Origin: Oceanimonas pelagia | GTDB taxonomy: Bacteria > Pseudomonadota > Gammaproteobacteria > Enterobacterales > Aeromonadaceae | DNA: 64,000 nucleotides | Assembly: GCF_030849025.1 (NCBI RefSeq) | Contig: NZ_CP118224.1 | Coordinates: 1,844,001-1,908,000, forward strand | Direction of reading: 5' to 3' | Part shown: in pieces, positions 8,480-29,541 of the stretch | Layout: every line of letters starts with the position of its first letter | Numbering within the stretch: the first letter of the stretch is position 1 | Notes under the pieces: generated by a model | Seen by the model: the letters and a program-made list of their open reading frames with translations, nothing else | What the model was told of the DNA's origin: nothing | Database searches by the model: none | Made by a program: the position numbers and the translations under genes

Positions 8480-9211
8480 GTGGAAAAGATAGTTTTTTTA
8501 CATATACCAAAAACTGGTGGAACATCTGTACATGACTATTTAATTACAAAATTCTCAGGCAATGAAATTATCCCTGATAGATTTAACACACTCAGAAATC
8601 ATAGCCCTGAACACTTAAACCAGTTTCGTTACTTTTCAGGTCATTATGATATAGATGGCATTAACAGAATCCCTGGTAACAAGAAAGTTTTCACATTTTT
8701 TCGGGAGCCAAAGGAAACTATACTATCACTTTACTATTTTTGGCGCTCTCATAAAATTAGTTTTATTGAAAAGCATAATCTCAATGGACCTCGCATAGCG
8801 AAAAAGTTAAGTCTTTTAGAGTTCTTACGGTATAACAAAGAAGGAATACCCGCAAACATCAATAACTACACAACACGAGTCCTGATAGGGAAGATGCACT
8901 ACGGCCCTAACGGTGAATTTTTATACCCCGAGGATGAGCTAATAGATAGAGCAAAAGCCACTATTAATAGTTTAGCGACTTTTGGAGTAATGGATAACTA
9001 TAACAAATCTTACCGAAAAGTAATTGAAGATCTTGGGTTTAAAGCCCCTGAAATCATACCTCACTCACGAAACAGCAGTGAGCGAAAAGATCCAAACCTA
9101 GAACCCATAGAAAAGGAAAAAATCACCGATGATATCAGTGAAGAGTTAGAAAAACTTACTCAGTTCGATCAGGTAATATATAATTACGCAAAAAAAACAC
9201 TCAACACTTGA
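8480..9211 (+). CDS. Sulfotransferase family protein (PAPS-dependent)
   Basis: The 243-residue protein begins with a 5'-phosphosulfate binding loop, HIPKTGGTSVH (residues 8-18), diagnostic of Sulfotransfer_2-type carbohydrate sulfotransferases. A second motif, FFREP...ILSLYYFWR (about residues 75-95), matches the 3'-phosphate binding segment. It should move sulfate from PAPS to a hydroxyl of the glycan or a precursor. The start is GTG at 8480; there is no better ATG ahead of the loop. It is the last gene of the AT-rich block. The PAPS supply genes cysD, cysNC and cysQ lie about 14 kb downstream, which supports an active role. Confidence 0.87.
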   Translation: MEKIVFLHIPKTGGTSVHDYLITKFSGNEIIPDRFNTLRNHSPEHLNQFRYFSGHYDIDGINRIPGNKKVFTFFREPKETILSLYYFWRSHKISFIEKHNLNGPRIAKKLSLLEFLRYNKEGIPANINNYTTRVLIGKMHYGPNGEFLYPEDELIDRAKATINSLATFGVMDNYNKSYRKVIEDLGFKAPEIIPHSRNSSERKDPNLEPIEKEKITDDISEELEKLTQFDQVIYNYAKKTLNT

Positions 9212-19462: not shown

Positions 19463-20049
19463 TGCATATGATTAATACCTCAATTCCCGACCTTTATATT
19501 ATTGAGCCCACCGTGTTTGGCGACGAGCGAGGCTTTTTTTTTGAAAGCTTTAACCAACAGCGGTTTGAGCAAGCCATTGGCCGCAGTGTGCCGTTTGTGC
19601 AGGATAACCACTCCCGTTCTGCCCGGGGCGTACTGCGTGGCCTGCATTATCAGGTGGCCCAGCAACAGGGCAAACTGGTGCGCTGCACCCTGGGAGAGGT
19701 ATTTGATGTGGCGGTTGACCTGCGCCCGGGCTCGAATACCTTCGGACAATGGGAGGGCATAGTGCTCTCGGCGGAAAACAAACGGCAGGTGTGGATTCCG
19801 GAAGGCTTTGCCCATGGCTTTGTGGTGTTATCAGAAGTGGCTGAATTTTTGTACAAGACCACCGATTATTACGCCCCCAAGCATGAGCGTGCCATTCGCT
19901 GGGACGATCCCACCCTGGCCATAGACTGGCCCTTGCCCTGCCCGCCCCTGCTTTCGGAAAAAGACAAACATGCGCCGCTGTTTGCTGATGCGGAACTGCC
20001 TCAAAACGGAAACACCACCGGCACCAGTGCAATGACCCCGGCGGAGTAA
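19462..20049 (+). CDS. rfbC: dTDP-4-dehydrorhamnose 3,5-epimerase
   Basis: The 195-residue cupin enzyme epimerises C3 and C5 of the keto sugar. Diagnostic segments are RGFFFESFN, RGVLRGLHYQ (catalytic His), DVAVDLRPGS and PEGFAHGFVVLS. The family is usually about 180 residues; here the last ~15 residues (after ADAELP) are read from sequence that also encodes the end of the convergent SLC13 gene. The genes overlap tail to tail by 49 bp, so the tail may be a by-product of the junction. Confidence 0.94.
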   Translation: MHMINTSIPDLYIIEPTVFGDERGFFFESFNQQRFEQAIGRSVPFVQDNHSRSARGVLRGLHYQVAQQQGKLVRCTLGEVFDVAVDLRPGSNTFGQWEGIVLSAENKRQVWIPEGFAHGFVVLSEVAEFLYKTTDYYAPKHERAIRWDDPTLAIDWPLPCPPLLSEKDKHAPLFADAELPQNGNTTGTSAMTPAE

Positions 20050-21725
20050 GCCAGGCTGACGGGCAGGCCGGTTTTGATGTAATCCACCATGCGGTAACGC
20101 CCGGGGGAATACACCATCAGGTGGGTCTGGTAGCCGAAAGGCACCATGAAACAGGCGCTGGCGCCAAAGGCCACCGCCATGATAAAGGGCATGGGGTCAA
20201 CGCCAAAGGCCTGCGCTGTGCTCAGCCCGATGGGGAACGCCAGGGCGGCGGCGGCGTTATTGGTCACGGTTTCGGTCAGCAGCAGGGTCATTAAATACAC
20301 TCCTGCAAAGGCGCCGAACACGCCGTGCCCGTTAAATAGCGCCCGCATGCCGTCGGCTACCAGTTGTGCCGCTCCCGAGCTGTCCATGGCCTTGGCCACG
20401 GTCAGCGCCGAGCCGATAATCACCACCAGCTCAAAGGGAAAGCGCCGGCGCAGTTCGGAAAGCGTTAACATGCGGCTTAGCAACAGGCCGGCCAGCAACA
20501 GCAGCAGGCCATTAAGCAGCGGCAGCAGGTTCAGGGCCGCCATGGCAATAACAGCGCCAAAGCCGGCAAAGGCCAGCACGCTCTGGCGATTGCTGAGTTT
20601 GGGCCGCTGCATTTTGCCCAGCAGATGAAAGTTGCGATCCAGGTTGCGGTGCTGGGTAAAGTCGGCGCCTACCGCCAGCAGCAGGCTGTCGCCCACCCTG
20701 AGCGGAATTTTACCCAGCTGGCCGGTCAGTCGTTTGTTGCCCCGCCTGATGCCCACCACACCGGCGTTGAACATGGTGCGAAAGTCCACTTCCTGCAGGG
20801 TGCGCTTGGCCAGCTCCGACTCGTTGGACACCACCACTTCCACCAGGTTGGAGGCCAGCAACCGATCCACGCCATTGCCAAACAGCTCCAGCCCGCTGAA
20901 GGGCTGCAATGCCTGCACCTTTTTCACCTCTCCGGTAAACACCAGTACGTCGTTGGCTTCCAGTATTTCATCGGGAGCCACCGGGCTGATGAGCCGGTCG
21001 TTGCGCACAATTTCCAGCAAGAACAACCCATCCAGGCTGCGCAGCCGGTTTTGCTCTATGCTGCGGCCAACCAGCGCCGCCCCGGGCTGCACCCTGGCTT
21101 CCAGAAAATAGGGCTGGGCACTTTCCTCGTCTTTCATGCCATTTTGCGGCAACAGCCGGGCACTGAACATCAGCACCATCAGGCACAACAAGGCAACCGG
21201 CACACCCACGGCGGCAAACTCAAACATGCCCAGCGCCGGCAGGCCAGCGTTCACCACAAAGGAGTTGACCACCAGGTTGGTAGAAGTGCCTATCAGGGTA
21301 GTCACGCCCCCCAGCACGGAGGCGAAAGAAAGCGGAATGAGCAGGCGCGACGCCGGAATATGGCGCTGACGCGAAATCACCCCCAGCAGTGATCCCACCA
21401 CGGCGGTGTTGTTAAGAAAGGCGGAAAGACCGGCCGTTACTCCCATCAGCCGCAGGCTGGCCAGGCTTTCATTGCCCTTTAGCAGAGCGCCGGAAAACCG
21501 CTCCAGCAAGGGGGAGCGCTCCAGTGCCAGCGACACCAGCATTAATACCAGCAGGGTGATCAGCGCCGGATTGGTAAAACTGCTCAGCCATTGCTGCTCG
21601 CTGACCACCCCCAGCACCAGATAACCGGTGGCCCAGCCACCAAACAGCACGGCCGGAGAAAAACGCCCCTGCACCAGCAGCCCCAGCAACACGCCCACCG
21701 ACGTTAACACCCACCAGGCGGTCAT
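20001..21725 (-). CDS. SLC13 family permease with two RCK_C (TrkA-C) domains, likely sulfate transporter
   Basis: The 574-residue membrane protein has the SLC13/DASS layout: N-terminal hydrophobic helices to about residue 195, two TrkA-C type regulatory domains at about 205-275 and 290-360, then a second hydrophobic half. The sequence SFASVLGGVTTLIGTSTNLVVNS is a split view of the conserved SNT sodium/substrate motif (GTSTN). Relatives with this architecture beside cysD/cysN genes are commonly annotated as sulfate permeases. Substrate is inferred from context: it is divergent from the cysD gene across about 57 bp. The 3' end overlaps rfbC by 49 bp. Confidence 0.85.
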   Translation of the reverse strand: MTAWWVLTSVGVLLGLLVQGRFSPAVLFGGWATGYLVLGVVSEQQWLSSFTNPALITLLVLMLVSLALERSPLLERFSGALLKGNESLASLRLMGVTAGLSAFLNNTAVVGSLLGVISRQRHIPASRLLIPLSFASVLGGVTTLIGTSTNLVVNSFVVNAGLPALGMFEFAAVGVPVALLCLMVLMFSARLLPQNGMKDEESAQPYFLEARVQPGAALVGRSIEQNRLRSLDGLFLLEIVRNDRLISPVAPDEILEANDVLVFTGEVKKVQALQPFSGLELFGNGVDRLLASNLVEVVVSNESELAKRTLQEVDFRTMFNAGVVGIRRGNKRLTGQLGKIPLRVGDSLLLAVGADFTQHRNLDRNFHLLGKMQRPKLSNRQSVLAFAGFGAVIAMAALNLLPLLNGLLLLLAGLLLSRMLTLSELRRRFPFELVVIIGSALTVAKAMDSSGAAQLVADGMRALFNGHGVFGAFAGVYLMTLLLTETVTNNAAAALAFPIGLSTAQAFGVDPMPFIMAVAFGASACFMVPFGYQTHLMVYSPGRYRMVDYIKTGLPVSLAYSAGVIALVPVVFPF

Positions 21726-21782
21726 TGTTTTTGTTCCTTTTCAAGCATGCTTTTATTCTACGTTGATGTTTAATACACTGTC

Positions 21783-22697
21783 ATGCAAAACACGGTCGGG
21801 CAACTGACAATAATTAAAAAAACCTTGTGGTGGCTTAACTTGAGCAAAGCAAAGGCTATTAAAGATTTATCGCCGGATAACATTAGCCACCGTCGCAGAA
21901 AGGCGGTGGAGCTGCGCCTTGCCGGCGCCACCCTGGCTCAGGTATCTGCCGCCACCGGGCTCAGCAACCCCACTATCATTGCGGCCTGCAAGGCCTTTGC
22001 CGCCGGCGGCTGGGAGGCCGTCAAGGTAAAGCCCAGAGGCAGAAAAAAGGGAGAAGGGCGAGCCCTTTCTGCCGAGCAGGAGCAGGTGTTGCTGCAGCGC
22101 CTGCAATCCCCCCCGCCGGGCAATGGCCTGTGGCATGCCCAGCCCATACTGCAATGGGTTGCCAGTGAACTGGGCGTGCCGTTAACCGAACGCTCGCTGC
22201 ATCGTTTTATGGAGCGCTGGCAGCTGCAGGCCGAGCCTGAGCAGCATGTCTTTTCACGCTCGGCTCACCCTGCCGCTCAGCAATGGCTCAAGCATGCCCT
22301 TCCCCTTATTGAACAGCGGGCCAGATACAGCGGTGGCCGGGTGCTGTGGGGCGGCCTTAAAACAACAGGCACGCATTCACTGCTCTATGCACACACGCCC
22401 AGAGGGCGACAGCTTTGGCTTGCGGTGCCCTACCCGGCCACGGCAGAGCATTTTATTGCGTTTTCTGAGCGCCTTCTTTTTGAAGAGCAGCCGCTTTGCC
22501 TGGTGCTTGCCGGCTGCGATATATCGCGCGTAACCAACATTCAGCGCTGGCTGAACGAACACACAAACATCGGTGTTTTTCACCCTGCCCCATATTCATC
22601 TTCGCCGGCTGTTACCACAGTGCCACGGGAGCCTGATCGGCACCCGCTACCTTCTGCCATTTCAGCCCAGGCAACCTTAGTAACCAAGAGGAACTCC
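21783..22697 (+). CDS. HTH/IS630-like domesticated transposase segment, open in frame into cysD
   Basis: These 305 codons run into cysD with no stop between. Residues about 35-80 form a helix-turn-helix ([27 protein letters not shown]). The following 50 residues match the second HTH of IS630-type transposases. Residues about 180-270 look like the DDE fold ([30 protein letters not shown]), but the aspartates and glutamate expected at those places are missing. So the fold survives while catalysis should be lost. It may be a DNA-binding regulator, translated alone, as a 604-residue fusion with CysD, or not at all. No insertion-sequence ends are visible around it. Confidence 0.6.
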
Positions 22698-23597
22698 ATG
22701 AATCTGACCCACCTGCAACGGCTGGAAGCCGAAAGTATCCACATCATGCGGGAAGTGGTGGCCGAGGCCGACAACCCCGTCATGCTCTACTCCATCGGCA
22801 AGGACAGCGCCGTGATGCTGCACCTGGCCATGAAGGCATTCTACCCCTCGGTGCCGCCCTTTCCGTTGCTGCACGTGGACACCCGCTGGAAGTTCCGCGA
22901 AATGTACGAGTTCCGCGATCGTATGGCCAAGGAGCTGGGCATGGAGCTGCTGGTGCACATCAACCCGGAAGCCATCGAGAAGGACATCAACCCCTTCACT
23001 CACGGCTCCGCCATTCATACCGACATCACCAAGACCGAAGGGCTCAAGCAGGCACTGGACAAGTACGGTTTCGACGCCGCCTTTGGGGGCGCCCGCCGCG
23101 ATGAGGAAAAGTCCCGGGCCAAGGAGCGCATTTTCTCCTTCCGTACCGCCCAGCACCGCTGGGATCCGAAAAACCAGCGCCCCGAGCTGTGGAAGCTGTA
23201 CAACGCCCGCAAGCACAAGGGCGAGTCCATTCGCGTGTTCCCGCTGTCCAACTGGACCGAGCTCGACATCTGGCAGTACATTCACCTGGAGAATATTCCC
23301 ATCGTGCCGCTGTATTACGCCGCCCAGCGCCCGGTGGTGGAGCGCGACGGCACCCTGATCATGGTGGACGACGAGCGCATGCCGCTGAAAGAGGGCGAAG
23401 TGCCGATGATGAAGAGCGTGCGTTTCCGTACCCTCGGCTGCTACCCGCTCACCGGCGCGGTGGAGTCCGAGGCCGACACCCTGCCCGCCATTATTCAGGA
23501 AATGCTGCTGACCAAGACCTCGGAGCGCCAGGGCCGCATGATCGACCACGACTCCGCTGCATCCATGGAAAAGAAAAAACAGGAAGGTTATTTCTGA
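22698..23597 (+). CDS. cysD: Sulfate adenylyltransferase small subunit
   Basis: From ATG 22698 the protein is 299 residues, close to the usual CysD length of about 302. It has the PP-loop [10 protein letters not shown] near residue 32, [30 protein letters not shown] and the C-terminal QGRMIDHD. CysD with CysN converts sulfate and ATP to adenylyl sulfate. An AGAGGA site about 8 nt before this ATG supports an internal start, even though the frame is open far upstream. The last codons form the left arm of a 17-bp hairpin. Confidence 0.95.
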
Positions 23598-23652: not shown

Positions 23653-23704
23653 ACAAATAAAGTCACAGCGCAGCTGATGGTTTATGGCTTCCAGAGAGGG
23701 CGTG

Positions 23705-24064
23705 ATGAATTTTGAGAAATTGCAGGTGTGGAAGAAGTCGGCGAGGTTATCGGCTGACTTGTATAAGGCGCTGAGAGAACTACGGGATTTTGGTTTTCGC
23801 GATCAAATTACCCGTTCGGGCCTGTCCATACCCAGCAATATTGCCGAAGGCATGTCACGCTTCTCCAACAAGGACAAACGCCACTTTTTGGTGATCGCCA
23901 GGGGCTCATGTGCCGAGCTGCGCACTCAGGTCTATATCGGCATCGAAATTGGCTATATCAACGAGCAACAGGGTCGGCATTGGTTGCAGGAAACCCGTGA
24001 TATTTCAGCCATGCTGCACGGGCTTATTACCACCCTGAATGACGAACAAAACGCCGCAAGCTGA
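23705..24064 (+). CDS. Four-helix-bundle protein (S23 / 23S rRNA intervening-sequence family)
   Basis: The 119-residue protein starts NFEKLQVWKKSARL and contains FRDQITRSGLSIPSNIAEG and FLVIARGSCAELRTQ, which are diagnostic of the S23/four-helix-bundle family. The family is found both inside 23S rRNA intervening sequences and as stand-alone genes; its function is not known. ATG 23705 is preferred over ATG 23684 because GAGAGGG lies just before it and the family starts at this point. It interrupts cysD and cysNC and is flanked by inverted repeats, which suggests it arrived as a cassette. Confidence 0.88.
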   Translation: MNFEKLQVWKKSARLSADLYKALRELRDFGFRDQITRSGLSIPSNIAEGMSRFSNKDKRHFLVIARGSCAELRTQVYIGIEIGYINEQQGRHWLQETRDISAMLHGLITTLNDEQNAAS

Positions 24065-24118: not shown

Positions 24119-26023
24119 ATGCACCAGTCATCTCTGATAGAAAGCAATATCAACGAATACCTCAAGCAGCACGAAAGCAAGAGTCTGCTGCGCTTTATCA
24201 CCTGCGGCAGCGTGGACGACGGCAAGAGTACCCTGATCGGGCGCTTGTTGTTCGAGTCCAAGATGCTGTTTGAAGATCAGCTCGCCGCCATGGAGGCCGA
24301 CTCGAAAAAGTACGGCACTCAGGGTGAGGACATCGACTTTGCGCTGCTGGCGGACGGCCTGGCCGCCGAGCGCGAGCAGGGCATTACCATCGACGTGGCC
24401 TACCGCTTCTTCTCCACCGACAAGCGCAAGTTCATTGTGGCCGACACTCCCGGACACGAGCAGTACACCCGCAACATGGTGACCGGCGCCTCCACCGCCG
24501 ACGCCGCCATTCTGATGGTGGATGCGCGCAAGGGCATTCTCACCCAGACCCGCCGCCACAGCTACCTGATGTCGCTGCTGGGCATTCGCCAGGTGGTGGT
24601 GGCCATCAACAAGATGGATCTGGTGAACTACTCGGAAGACACCTTCCGCAAGATCAAGGAAGACTACGCGCAATTTGCCGAGCAACTCAACCTCGACAAC
24701 ATCACCTATATTCCCATGTCGGCGTTCAAGGGCGACAACATCGTTGAGCCCAGCGCCAACATGCCCTGGTATCACGGCACCACCCTGATGGGCTACCTGG
24801 AAACCGTGGAAGTGGACGACACCCGCATGCAGCGCGCGCCCTTCCGCCTGCCGGTGCAGTGGGTCAACCGCCCCAACCTGGACTTCCGCGGCTTTGCCGG
24901 CACCATCGCCAGCGGCGTGGTCAAACCCGGCGATCGCATTCGCGTGCTGCCGTCGGGCAAGGAAAGCACCGTGGATCGCATTGTGGTGCACGGCGGCGAT
25001 CTGCCCGAGGCGGTAGCCGGTCAGTCGGTGACCCTGACCCTGAAAGATGAAATCGACATCTCCCGGGGGGATGTGATCTCCACCGCCGAGGCGCCGGTGG
25101 AAACCGCCGATCAGTTCGAGTCCACCCTGGTGTGGATGCACGAAGATCCACTGCTGCCGGGCCGCCCCTACCTGCTGAAGATCGGCACCAAGACGGTGAC
25201 CGCCTCGGTGACCGACATCAAGTATCAGGTGAACGTCAACACCCTGGAGCACGTGGCCGCCAAGAAGCTGGATCTGAACGGCATTGCGGTGTGTAACCTC
25301 AGCCTGGACCGGGCCATTGCCTTTGACGACTACCAGAGCAACAAGGACACCGGCGGCTTTATTCTGATCGACCGGCTGTCCAACAACACGGTGGCCGCCG
25401 GCATGCTGCACTTCTCCCTGCGCCGCAGCCAGAACATTCACATGCAGCACGTGGACGTGAACAAGGAAGCGCGGGCGCTCTCCAAGGGCCAGAAACCGGC
25501 GGTGCTGTGGTTTACCGGCCTGTCCGGTGCCGGCAAGTCCACCATCGCCAACCTGGTGGAGAAAAAGCTGCACGCGCAGGGCAACCACACCTACCTGCTG
25601 GACGGTGACAACGTGCGCCACGGCCTGAACAAGGATCTGGGCTTTACCGACGCCGACCGGGTGGAGAACATTCGCCGGGTGGCGGAAGTGTCGAAGCTGA
25701 TGGTGGATGCGGGCCTGATCGTGCTCACCGCCTTTATCTCGCCGTTCCGCGCCGAGCGCCGCCTGGCCCGGGAGCTGCTGGAAGACGGTGAATTCATCGA
25801 AGTGCACGTGGACACCCCGCTCAACGTGGCGGAAGAGCGCGACGTGAAGGGACTGTACAAGAAGGCCCGCCGCGGTGAGCTGAAGAACTTCACCGGCATC
25901 GACTCCGCCTACGAGCAGCCGGAGAACCCGGAAATCCGTCTCGACACCACGGCCATGAGTGCCGACGAAGCGGCGGATGCGGTGATTGCCGTGCTGAAAG
26001 AACGGGGAATTATTACAGGATAA
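24119..26023 (+). CDS. cysNC: Fused sulfate adenylyltransferase GTPase subunit / adenylylsulfate kinase
   Basis: The 634-residue protein is a CysN-CysC fusion of the NodQ type. The N-terminal GTPase has P-loop GSVDDGKST near residue 32, switch region [12 protein letters not shown] near 110 and NKMD near 168, then EF-Tu-like beta-barrel domains. From about residue 460 the APS kinase domain has P-loop [20 protein letters not shown] and the ISPFR loop. It activates sulfate to PAPS, the donor needed by the sulfotransferase encoded at 8480. The fusion explains why no separate cysC is present. CDS composition is GC-rich and regular. Confidence 0.97.
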
Positions 26024-26080: not shown

Positions 26081-26099
26081 ATGTCGCCAGCCGAATGGA

Positions 26100-26117
26100 C
26101 TCCGGCCTTCGCCGGAG
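26100..26117. repeat. REP-type palindrome (CTCCGGC-CTTC-GCCGGAG)
   Basis: A perfect 7-bp stem with a four-base loop, followed by TGACG. When read as protein it yields the WTPAFAGVT string that often contaminates gene starts. A related ATTCCCGC/GCGGGAAT element lies inside kpsC at 28089. Confidence 0.75.
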
Positions 26118-26137
26118 TGACGTTAAAAGGAAATAGA

Positions 26138-26935
<798 letters not shown>

Positions 26936-26987: not shown

Positions 26988-29063
26988 ATGATTGAGCCTT
27001 TTATGCTTCTAACCACCTCTTTCGGCATCTGGCGCCAGCGCCGGGTGCTTAACGTTCTGCTGGCGCCCCACTCCCTTGGGCTGATGCCTGACAACAGCCC
27101 CGCCGCGGTGGTGGGCTGGGGCATGAAGCCCAACACCGAACGCGCCCGCCGGCTGGCAGAGCGGCGCGCCCTGCCCTTCTGGCAGCTGGAAGACGGCTTT
27201 ATCGGCTATATCGGCCACCCGGCCGGTGGCGGCCACCGGCTGTCGCTGATTGTTGATAAGGTTGGCGTGTATTACGACGCCACCCGCCCAAGCGCCCTTG
27301 AGCACATGCTGCAGAGCCTCGACTGGTGGAATGACGACTGGCAACAGCGGGCCGGGGCGCTGCGCCAGGCTCTGGTTGAGCATGGCATTACCAAATACAA
27401 CTGCTATGCCGGCAACACATTGCCGGCGGCAGTGGCGACCAGGCTGGATAATGCTCGCCCCAGGGTGCTGGTGATTGACCAGACCAGAGGGGATCAGTCG
27501 GTGCGGCTGGGGCTGGCCAGCGAGCAGTCATTTGCCAATATGCTGACCGCCGCCAAGGCCGAAAATCCGGGTGCCCAGATTATTGTGCGTACCCACCCGG
27601 ATGTGCTGCTGGGCAAAAAGCTGGGCTATTTAAACGATGTGGGTGACGATGTGCTGTTGCTGGCCGACAGTGTGAATCCCTTTGCACTGATGGCGCAGGT
27701 AGACAAGGTGTATACCGTTACCTCTCAGCTGGGCTTTGAAGCGCTGCTGGCCGGCAAGCCGGTGGTGTGCTTTGGCGCCCCCTTTTATGCCGGCTGGGGC
27801 GTGACCGACGACCGCATTGCAGTGCCGCGCCGGGGCGAGCCGCGCACCGTGCCGCAGCTGCTGGCGGCGGCCTATCTGCGTTATTGCCGTTATCTGGATC
27901 CGATCACCGGTGAGCGTTGTGAGCTGGAAGATGTGCTGGATTTGATTTTGGCGCAGCGTTCACCGGTGCCGCCGGTGGATGAGTTGTATGCAGTAGGGTT
28001 TTCGCTGTGGCGACGGCGCTTCGCGCCCCGTTTTTTAAGCCGTTACGCCAGGAAAGTGACCTTTGTTAACCGTATTCCCGACGCCATGGATTCCCGCTTT
28101 CGCGGGAATGACAATAAAGCCGTGCTGGTATGGGGCCGCCGGTTTGAATCGCAGCTGGCGAATTGCCCGCTGCCGGTATGGCGCATGGAAGACGGCTTTT
28201 TGCGCTCGGTGGGGCTGGGCTCGGATCTGCGTCGGCCGGGCTCACTGGTAATAGACCCTGTTGGCATCTATTACGATCCGCGCACACCCAGCGCCATTGA
28301 ACATTATCTGGGTCACCACGACTTCTCTTCCCTTGAGCTGAGCCTGGGCGAGCAGTTGTTAACCCATTTTCGCGAGCAGGCGCTCACCAAATACAATGTG
28401 GGCACGCGCAGCCGGCTTGACTGGCGGAAACAGGCCAATGGCCGACCGGTGCTGCTGGTGCCCGGCCAGGTGGACGACGATGCCTCGGTGCAGCTGGGCA
28501 GCCCGTTCGTGGCCGGCAATGCCGCCCTGCTGCAGGCGGTGCGGGCCGCTCATCCGAATGCCTTTATCATATTCAAACCGCACCCGGATGTGGTGAGCGG
28601 CAACCGCAAGGGGCAGGTGCCGGAAAAGGTACTGAAGACTTGTGTGGATCTGGTGGAAACGGACGCCGGCATTGTGGACTGTCTGGACGCCTGCGATACG
28701 GTGCATGTGCTTACCTCCCTTACCGGGCTGGAGGCGCTGATCCGGGGCAAGCCGGTCACGGTGTGGAGCCAGCCGTTTTATGCCGGCTGGGGACTGACTA
28801 CCGATGTGCACCCTGTAGCGCGCCGGGGCCGCGCCCTGCCCCTGCCGGCGCTGGTGTATGCCACCTATGCCTGGTATCCCACCTATGTGGATTATCAAAC
28901 CGGCCTGTGCAGCACGCCGCAACGCTTCGCGCGCCAGCTGGCCCGGGAGCGGGAGCAGTTCAAAGAGCCGGACAACCGGGTGCTGCGGCTGGTGCACCGC
29001 CGGCTGCGCAAGGCGCGGTTTTTGTGGGAAGCATTGGCCCCTTTGGGGAGCTTTAAGCGGTAA
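26988..29063 (+). CDS. kpsC: Capsular polysaccharide beta-Kdo transferase KpsC-like
   Basis: About 691 residues from ATG 26988 (27003 is also possible); KpsC is about 675. It has two GT99-type units. Unit 1 shows QLEDGFIGYIG, VYYDATRPSALE, DQTRGDQSV, VRTHPDVLLGKK and YAGWGVTDDR. Unit 2 shows RMEDGFLRSVGLGSD, IYYDPRTPSAIE, VPGQVDDDAS, FKPHPDVVSGNRKG and FYAGWGLTTD. KpsC builds the poly-beta-Kdo linker of ABC-transporter-dependent capsules on a lipid anchor. No kpsS, kpsM/T or kpsF/U gene is nearby, so it is an orphan here. A REP palindrome is inserted in frame between the units (28089-28112). The frame extends upstream through the 26941 palindrome but that part is not family-like. Confidence 0.92.
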   Translation: MIEPFMLLTTSFGIWRQRRVLNVLLAPHSLGLMPDNSPAAVVGWGMKPNTERARRLAERRALPFWQLEDGFIGYIGHPAGGGHRLSLIVDKVGVYYDATRPSALEHMLQSLDWWNDDWQQRAGALRQALVEHGITKYNCYAGNTLPAAVATRLDNARPRVLVIDQTRGDQSVRLGLASEQSFANMLTAAKAENPGAQIIVRTHPDVLLGKKLGYLNDVGDDVLLLADSVNPFALMAQVDKVYTVTSQLGFEALLAGKPVVCFGAPFYAGWGVTDDRIAVPRRGEPRTVPQLLAAAYLRYCRYLDPITGERCELEDVLDLILAQRSPVPPVDELYAVGFSLWRRRFAPRFLSRYARKVTFVNRIPDAMDSRFRGNDNKAVLVWGRRFESQLANCPLPVWRMEDGFLRSVGLGSDLRRPGSLVIDPVGIYYDPRTPSAIEHYLGHHDFSSLELSLGEQLLTHFREQALTKYNVGTRSRLDWRKQANGRPVLLVPGQVDDDASVQLGSPFVAGNAALLQAVRAAHPNAFIIFKPHPDVVSGNRKGQVPEKVLKTCVDLVETDAGIVDCLDACDTVHVLTSLTGLEALIRGKPVTVWSQPFYAGWGLTTDVHPVARRGRALPLPALVYATYAWYPTYVDYQTGLCSTPQRFARQLAREREQFKEPDNRVLRLVHRRLRKARFLWEALAPLGSFKR
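28089..28112. repeat. REP-type palindrome inserted in kpsC coding sequence
   Basis: ATTCCCGC-TTTC-GCGGGAAT followed by GAC, translated in frame as DSRFRGND. It falls in the linker between the two catalytic units, so the insertion keeps both intact. Confidence 0.85.
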
Positions 29064-29076
29064 ACTGTCAGCTAAG

Positions 29077-29123
29077 AAAAAGGGGTCGGAGTCATTTTTA
29101 AAAATTGACTCCGACCCCTTTTT
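29077..29123. repeat. 45-nt palindrome, copy 2 (downstream of kpsC)
   Basis: Same arm as copy 1 (AAAAAGGGGTCGGAGTCA), with a slightly longer AT centre. It starts 13 nt after the kpsC stop and can act as its terminator. Copies 1 and 2 bracket kpsC. Confidence 0.93.
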
Positions 29124-29142
29124 AAGAAGCACAGAAGTGAAC

Positions 29143-29541
29143 ATGGAGCAACTGGCAAACACTGTGAAGCTGGCGCGCCAGCGCTCTGATATTGCTGCGC
29201 TTTGGCTGTATGGCTCCCGGGCCAGAGGAGACCATCACGCCGGTAGCGACTACGATCTGGCAGTGGTATTTACCCACTGGGAGCCGGATGCTTTATCTCG
29301 CCGGCTCAGGCCGAAAGAAATAGCACTGGACTGGCAACACAAGCTTGCCATGCCGGAAGGCACCATCAGTGTGGTGGACTTGGCCATAGCTCCCGTTCCC
29401 CTTGGCTGGAGTGTGCTGAGCCAGGGCAAGCTGTTACTGGATCTGTCCCCTTCTCACCGCATGCAGGCAGAGCAGCGCATTTATTCCATGTGGGAGCTGG
29501 ATTACGTTCATGCCCACAACGCCGGAGAACAACATGATTAA
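29143..29541 (+). CDS. mntA: MntA-like antitoxin nucleotidyltransferase (type VII TA)
   Basis: The 132-residue minimal nucleotidyltransferase has the GSX10DXD motif (GSRARGD...DYD) at residues 24-38, as in MntA antitoxins, which AMPylate a partner HEPN toxin. ATG 29143 is the family-like start; the frame is open upstream into kpsC but unrelated. The gene appears intact and overlaps the start of the hepT-like gene by 8 nt, the usual layout of this pair. Confidence 0.85.
   Translation: MEQLANTVKLARQRSDIAALWLYGSRARGDHHAGSDYDLAVVFTHWEPDALSRRLRPKEIALDWQHKLAMPEGTISVVDLAIAPVPLGWSVLSQGKLLLDLSPSHRMQAEQRIYSMWELDYVHAHNAGEQHD

Follow-up and report, generated by a model that had tools for sequence, protein, structure and literature searches.

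Trigger enzymes such as PutA, BirA and NadR join an enzyme to a DNA-binding domain. PutA is reported to bind no site other than the spacer that separates putA from putP, a symporter gene divergent from it (PMC8249747), and PutA and BirA are named as moonlighting repressors (PMC6978683). The locus studied here would share the domain layout of these proteins, and it resembles putA and putP in gene order, with a fused cysD gene lying divergent from a transporter gene. It is unlike PutA, BirA and NadR in its enzyme, which is CysD, and in the IS630 derivation of its putative DNA-binding part, the likeness being one of layout and gene order. We are aware of no ATP sulfurylase that is fused to a DNA-binding domain, and among the titles and abstract openings listed in a search of the open-access literature, outside which most subscription papers lie, none described such a fusion.

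In the window (the whole stretch of 64,000 nucleotides of Oceanimonas pelagia DNA that was analysed), reading of the open frames showed a frame of 604 codons (21783-23597) that continues without a stop into cysD, and whose last 299 codons correspond to CysD according to curated models. The upstream segment occurs once in the window genome. A prior sequence-only reading had described this segment as open in frame into cysD, and the same frame was found in all six same-genus copies. The fusion proposed in that reading thus stood with the conserved frame, whereas its length of 604 residues did not: the start is probably the TTG at 21840, giving 585 residues, since this codon is common to all six same-genus fused copies and an in-frame TAA or TAG precedes it by three codons in 5/5 same-genus relatives. 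The ATG at 21783, which overlaps a conserved block of the spacer, was rejected as the probable start on account of these in-frame stops. If annotators were to choose the CysD ATG as the start, half of the fused protein would be concealed.

Table 1. Features of the fused cysD locus, in window coordinates.
Feature	Position	Strand	Basis or remark
Divergent CitMHS/SLC13-like transporter (predicted), with TrkA_C domains	20001..21725	-	PF03600 and PF02080 above cut-off
Spacer between fused gene and divergent transporter; proposed (inferred) target	21726..21839	.	114 bp
Promoter-like site for transporter, ATGACA-18-TAGAAT	21755..21784	-	Coincides with conserved spacer block
Fused gene, 585 aa plus stop	21840..23597	+	Probable TTG start; single frame to CysD stop
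First helix-turn-helix (HTH) unit	21873..22007	+	Most conserved part
Second helical HTH-like unit	22071..22217	+	AlphaFold2 model helices; HTH_32 and HTH_33 matches
RNase H-like fold without DDE residues	22338..22580	+	Model, structure search, residue comparison
Linker	22593..22697	+	Low confidence in model; no stop in any of the six same-genus copies
AGAGGA, possible ribosome site for internal CysD start	22687..22692	+	AGGA shared by 6/6 same-genus copies
CysD, ATP sulfurylase small subunit	22698..23597	+	NF009214 and TIGR02039 above cut-off
CysNC, CysN joined to APS kinase	24119..26023	+	NF004035 above cut-off
CysQ	26081..26935	+	TIGR01331 above cut-off

The upstream segment matched the NCBIfam IS630 transposase model NF033545 (E = 1.8e-21) over profile positions 1-148 of 299 only and with a score below the model cut-off (76.9 vs 100 bits); the same model was matched at E 0.001 or better by 11/11 compared rows. 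Among Pfam models, HTH_32, HTH_29 and HTH_28 were found, with HTH_28 alone passing its cut-off, and 23 of the 29 invariant columns of the 11-row alignment (A3) fall in residues 19-68, which marks the first HTH as the most conserved part. An AlphaFold2 model of the upstream domain (pLDDT 81.3, pTM 0.62) placed two helical units of HTH type before an RNase H-like fold, with low confidence in the linker; the model of the full-length fusion was poor (pLDDT 62.5). When the domain model was submitted to Foldseek, TnsB came first (E = 9.6e-4), and most of the later matches, at E = 0.003 or higher, were to structures of RNase H and retroviral integrases; these matches are weak, yet the modelled fold is as expected for an IS630 relative. 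A profile search against solved structures returned three weak matches (best E = 0.016), none of them meaningful.

Compared with 18 IS630 transposase frames, the first catalytic D was G or A in 11/11 fused rows, the second catalytic residue was replaced in 10 and gapped in one, and the catalytic E was absent from 11/11. These transposase frames came from 21 loci tried and were selected with a pattern that included the first acid, and only the second and third columns are independent of that selection. Judged by its missing IS630 residues, the segment is catalytically dead. The HTH and DDE-fold likeness without catalytic acids that the sequence-only reading had put forward was upheld, with two HTH units, an RNase H-like model and the acids missing from all 11 rows. 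Its term "decayed" has to be given up, because the loss in every row indicates old domestication rather than fresh decay. IS630 family transposases, for instance the IS1471-like plasmid elements (28% identical), share the HTH units and the RNase H-like fold with the segment; unlike them, the segment lacks the catalytic residues and the C-terminal part, and forms its own clade, joined to or adjoining CysD.

In the same-genus genomes that carry it, the segment was stop-free and in frame into cysD in 6/6, with TTG-to-ATG lengths of 855-891 bp, all multiples of three, and with no stop in frame vs 4-25 in each other frame. Pairwise dN/dS among these copies was 0.09-0.32 for the HTH part (15/15 pairs), 0.12-0.43 for the middle part (computable in 8/15 pairs), 0.29-1.18 for the linker (computable in 10/15 pairs) and 0.02-0.05 for the CysD part (15/15 pairs). 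By these ratios, the upstream segment is under purifying selection; the linker appears close to free in sequence, given its dN/dS of 0.29-1.18, yet it is kept open and in frame. When CysD was surveyed across 303 genomes of the class, 55 matches from 50 genomes were obtained (E 1e-100), and 11 of these lay in frames of more than 390 aa: three belong to the segment family (G000, the window genome, G569 and G668), two carry a shortened relative (G414 and G472) and six have a random-looking upstream part. Since chance frames upstream of CysD thus make up 6/11 of these long frames, the open frame by itself proves little and is not beyond chance; it is conservation that raises the fusion above it. 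An accidental open frame, or a decaying insertion sequence running into cysD, is contradicted by the 28-81% identity of the segment to 10 other copies, by the lengths in threes, by dN/dS values well below 1 in the HTH and middle parts and by the single clade that the copies form; conservation and selection together rule it out for practical purposes, and we consider it extremely improbable. The fused frame of segment and CysD is accordingly confirmed as a real observation.

With regard to distribution, 61 relatives were searched and 8 matched. The segment stands before cysD in six genomes (G000, G001, G002, G009, G013 and G014), that is, in 6 of the 23 genomes of the window's genus; G018 and G033 have IS630-like frames only, and G001 has one such frame besides its segment. 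A scan of named genomes found eight loci, three of them in Oceanimonas smirnovii, Oceanimonas sp. CHS3-5 and Zobellella endophytica, and five in distant metagenome-assembled genomes (Rhodocyclaceae, Granulosicoccaceae, Oceanospirillaceae, Burkholderiaceae and Burkholderiales). The distant loci were fused in frame in 5/5, two of them ending inside CysD at a contig end, and one distant genome (G1109) has a second fused copy (L111). Searches at the level of the order (394 genomes; 5 matched, all of the same genus), the class (369 genomes; 24 matched) and the phylum (398 genomes; 13 matched) used overlapping draws. The class matches comprised five fused copies (G000, G763, G569, G772 and G668), one separate gene before cysD (G774) and 18 transposase-like sequences, and the phylum matches one fused copy (G000), three separate genes (G774, G849 and G1102) and nine transposase-like sequences; six further matches, in G534 and G643, came without a locus and were left out of scoring. 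Of the 43 class and phylum loci, seven scored as members of the segment family, all seven directly before cysD, and the others scored better as transposases, except for L095, a fragment of a broken copy. In total, 16 fused copies were read, each as one open frame with a DNA-binding domain assigned by likeness and model, and the separate-gene form was found in three genomes of one family, between the divergent transporter gene and cysD. All members found thus lie beside cysD, and the family appears scattered and uncommon.

In a tree of 37 rows, the 16 fused and three separate copies formed one clade (100/100) vs the 18 transposases, and the three separate copies grouped together within it (99/97); G1107 has a long branch and G668 is represented by few columns. 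The deep order within the clade was not settled by this tree, which gives no answer on the order of fusion and splitting. The true fusion of the segment with a sulfate activation enzyme, as initially suggested, found support in its conservation within the genus (6/6) and in five distant loci when relatives were searched for the same upstream frame beside cysD. The other suggestion, of a domesticated regulator that had lost its stop, held with respect to a domesticated IS630 relative, on residues and clade; for the loss of the stop, the separate-gene form exists in three genomes.

Variants of the fusion were also found. In G668, the first HTH is joined to CysD and the RNase H-like part is absent. 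In G414 (L134 3958-4608, minus strand) and G472 (L136 3870-4484), a shortened relative without the first HTH is in frame with CysD; the two matched the family profile at E = 2.2e-7 and 6.5e-6 over positions 93-236 and 115-240, respectively, which cover the part from the second HTH to the RNase H-like fold, and are 37% identical to each other over 171 columns. These shortened relatives speak against a general need for the first HTH among the relatives. Viral contigs contained no relative of the segment, and all 39 plasmid records that matched were below 60% identity (among the 20 listed, 12 were annotated as IS630-type transposases, six had no feature under the match and two had no annotation); a viral or plasmid source of the segment was rejected on these grounds.

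The CysD domain is whole and also exceeds the curated cut-off of NF003587. An internal start at the ATG at 22698, which the sequence-only reading had inferred from a ribosome site, is plausible in the window by the AGGA preceding this ATG in 6/6 same-genus copies, a motif also present in 3/5 distant named loci (L051, L053 and L054). It does not hold generally. L055 has a weaker ribosome site, L052 has no ATG at the position of the CysD start and an ATG with a possible ribosome site 43 codons 5' of the CysD core, and neither G668 nor G763 showed an ATG with a clear ribosome site near the CysD start. These last two genomes have a single CysD each, which is fused, and in them the enzyme most likely consists of the fusion, because there is one CysD and no clear internal ribosome site. 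G001, G1105, G1106 and G1108 likewise have one, fused CysD each (the latter three are metagenome-assembled and maybe incomplete), and the remaining bearers of the segment have two.

In the window genome, the stand-alone cysD (copy A; L034 6256-7152) resembles the fused one (copy B) in cysD itself, in its divergent transporter and in the CysNC that follows; unlike copy B, it has no upstream domain, and its spacer carries a palindrome and lacks the near-consensus transporter promoter. DNA identity between cysD copies A and B was 98.9% in G000, 98.8% in G002, 91.5% in G009, 97.2% in G013 and 85.2% in G014, and in G000 the likeness between window positions 22698-23597 and copy A begins at the ATG, with unrelated sequence upstream. 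Recent gene conversion between the cysD copies of the window genome is likely, and would be the simplest cause of the likeness in G000, G002 and G013; it would keep both forms of CysD interchangeable.

We also examined the spacer between the fused gene and the transporter. Among the copy B spacers of the genus, which represent five distinct sequences (G009 and G013 being the same), 22 of the 30 columns of the conserved block are invariant vs 16 of 87 outside it. When searched with up to three mismatches, the block had a single occurrence in each of the six bearers, and the other 17 genomes of the genus had none; the pattern was built from the six bearers, and zero-mismatch matches there follow by construction. 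The promoter-like site rests on conservation, since the one site found in this region compares with a mean of 1.4 in shuffles, and the promoter alone would explain the conserved block. A transporter-strand site with 9-10 of 12 matches was present in 9/9 spacers beside the segment (six fused, three separate). The genus has 18 stand-alone cysD copies, and in 16 of them a divergent transporter start lies 119-121 bp away; the site was found in 2/16 of these spacers (9 of 12 matches, elsewhere in the spacer). Conversely, an ATAAC-N5-GTTAT palindrome, presumably resembling a LysR or CysB-type site, was present in 14/16 stand-alone spacers vs 0/9 beside the segment. The copy A spacer (e.g., L034 7153-7272) is near-unchanged in eight aligned genomes and contains this palindrome in perfect form. 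A strong basal transporter promoter would suit a repressor. The spacers are related to one another, and the promoter contrast is not one of independent cases; it amounts to a correlation among related sequences, and any change of regulator could give the same. An operator common to the families was sought by Gibbs motif search in 15 spacers, which beat six shuffles per width with the distant spacers aligning poorly, and this did not establish a motif shared by every spacer.

With a probability of about 0.5 and by analogy with PutA, we favour the reading of the fusion as a trigger enzyme, a DNA binder and an ATP sulfurylase in one, that acts on the spacer separating its gene from the divergent transporter. 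A single polypeptide would consist of a domesticated, dead IS630 transposase (two HTH units and an inert RNase H-like fold), a flexible linker and CysD, the latter serving as ATP sulfurylase subunit together with CysN. The fusion would bind the spacer between its own start and the transporter gene and repress transcription on one side or on both. Its affinity for DNA would shift with the state of CysD, e.g., between an empty form and one engaged with CysNC together with a substrate or product. The internal start would, in Oceanimonas-type genomes, probably provide free CysD too. We infer DNA binding, target and regulation from the comparisons above; the direction of regulation and its signal are guesses. 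The analogy with PutA is what leads us to propose that the sulfate-activation and transporter genes would be transcribed according to the state of CysD. If true, the enzyme that commits sulfate to activation would also report its own state to the uptake and activation genes, and a transposase would have been the source of its DNA-binding half. A wider proposal, in which one ancient IS630 domestication gave rise to sulfate-activation regulators which, joined to ATP sulfurylase, sense the condition of the enzyme and have displaced another regulator from the promoter of an operon for PAPS synthesis, is tentative and stands somewhat below even odds.

The trigger-enzyme reading draws on the conserved open frame, on purifying selection, on the seven family loci that directly precede cysD, on the palindrome (0/9 vs 14/16) and on the PutA precedent. 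It also draws on the first HTH, where conservation across the rows of A3 is highest, on its retention as the only segment part on CysD in G668, on the separate form lying between the divergent transporter and cysD, and on the promoter contrast of 9/9 vs 2/16. These last four also speak against a real fusion whose transposase part is a structural add-on, serving CysD assembly, the finding of CysNC or placement in the cell, perhaps on DNA, without control of transcription, and a separate gene cannot be a built-in part of CysD. That explanation fits better the shortened relatives in G414 and G472, which keep the part from the second HTH to the RNase H-like fold and not the first HTH; selection on the RNase H-like part also agrees with it. 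These relatives, along with the variation of the linked region (G668 being without the RNase H-like part), count against a trigger enzyme. On balance, we regard the structural explanation as unlikely. The segment might instead be a transcription factor with no cross-talk to CysD, the fusion serving to fix dosage, so that each enzyme comes with one regulator, and free CysD arising from the internal start. The separate-gene form in three genomes and the AGGA before the CysD ATG in 6/6 same-genus copies would suit this. Against it, the one CysD found in each of G668 and G763 is fused, and neither genome showed an ATG preceded by a clear ribosome site; we find this explanation quite unlikely.

The neighbourhood of the fused gene was compared among loci. 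The window transporter matched TIGR00785 (sodium-coupled anion symporter) below its cut-off, and copy A transporters are 75-81% identical to it in protein sequence. At the copy A locus, the transporter gene is divergent from cysD-cysNC, and at copy B the order is divergent transporter, fused cysD, cysNC, cysQ and a KpsC-like capsule gene. In L051, L053, L054, L055 and L111, CysQ takes the divergent position, a KpsC-like gene precedes the fused cysD in G569 and G772, and CysNC follows the fused cysD wherever the sequence extends, except in these two genomes. The cluster before copy B contains sugar-nucleotide and glycosyltransferase genes and a sulfotransferase-like gene, and copy B may for this reason make PAPS for polysaccharide sulfation. 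The sulfotransferase-like gene (8480-9208) matched PF03567 at 25.4 bits vs a cut-off of 22 and is a possible PAPS user.

Two other genes were observed at the locus. Between cysD and cysNC (23684-24064), a four-helix protein of the 23S rRNA intervening-sequence type (PF05635) is encoded; its copy in G002 shows 100% protein identity over 118 aa, and relatives adjoin cysD in some loci of both copy types. Finally, a match to an MntA-type nucleotidyltransferase antitoxin (NF047752, 65 bits vs a cut-off of 60) at 28858-29541 overlaps the end of the KpsC-like gene.
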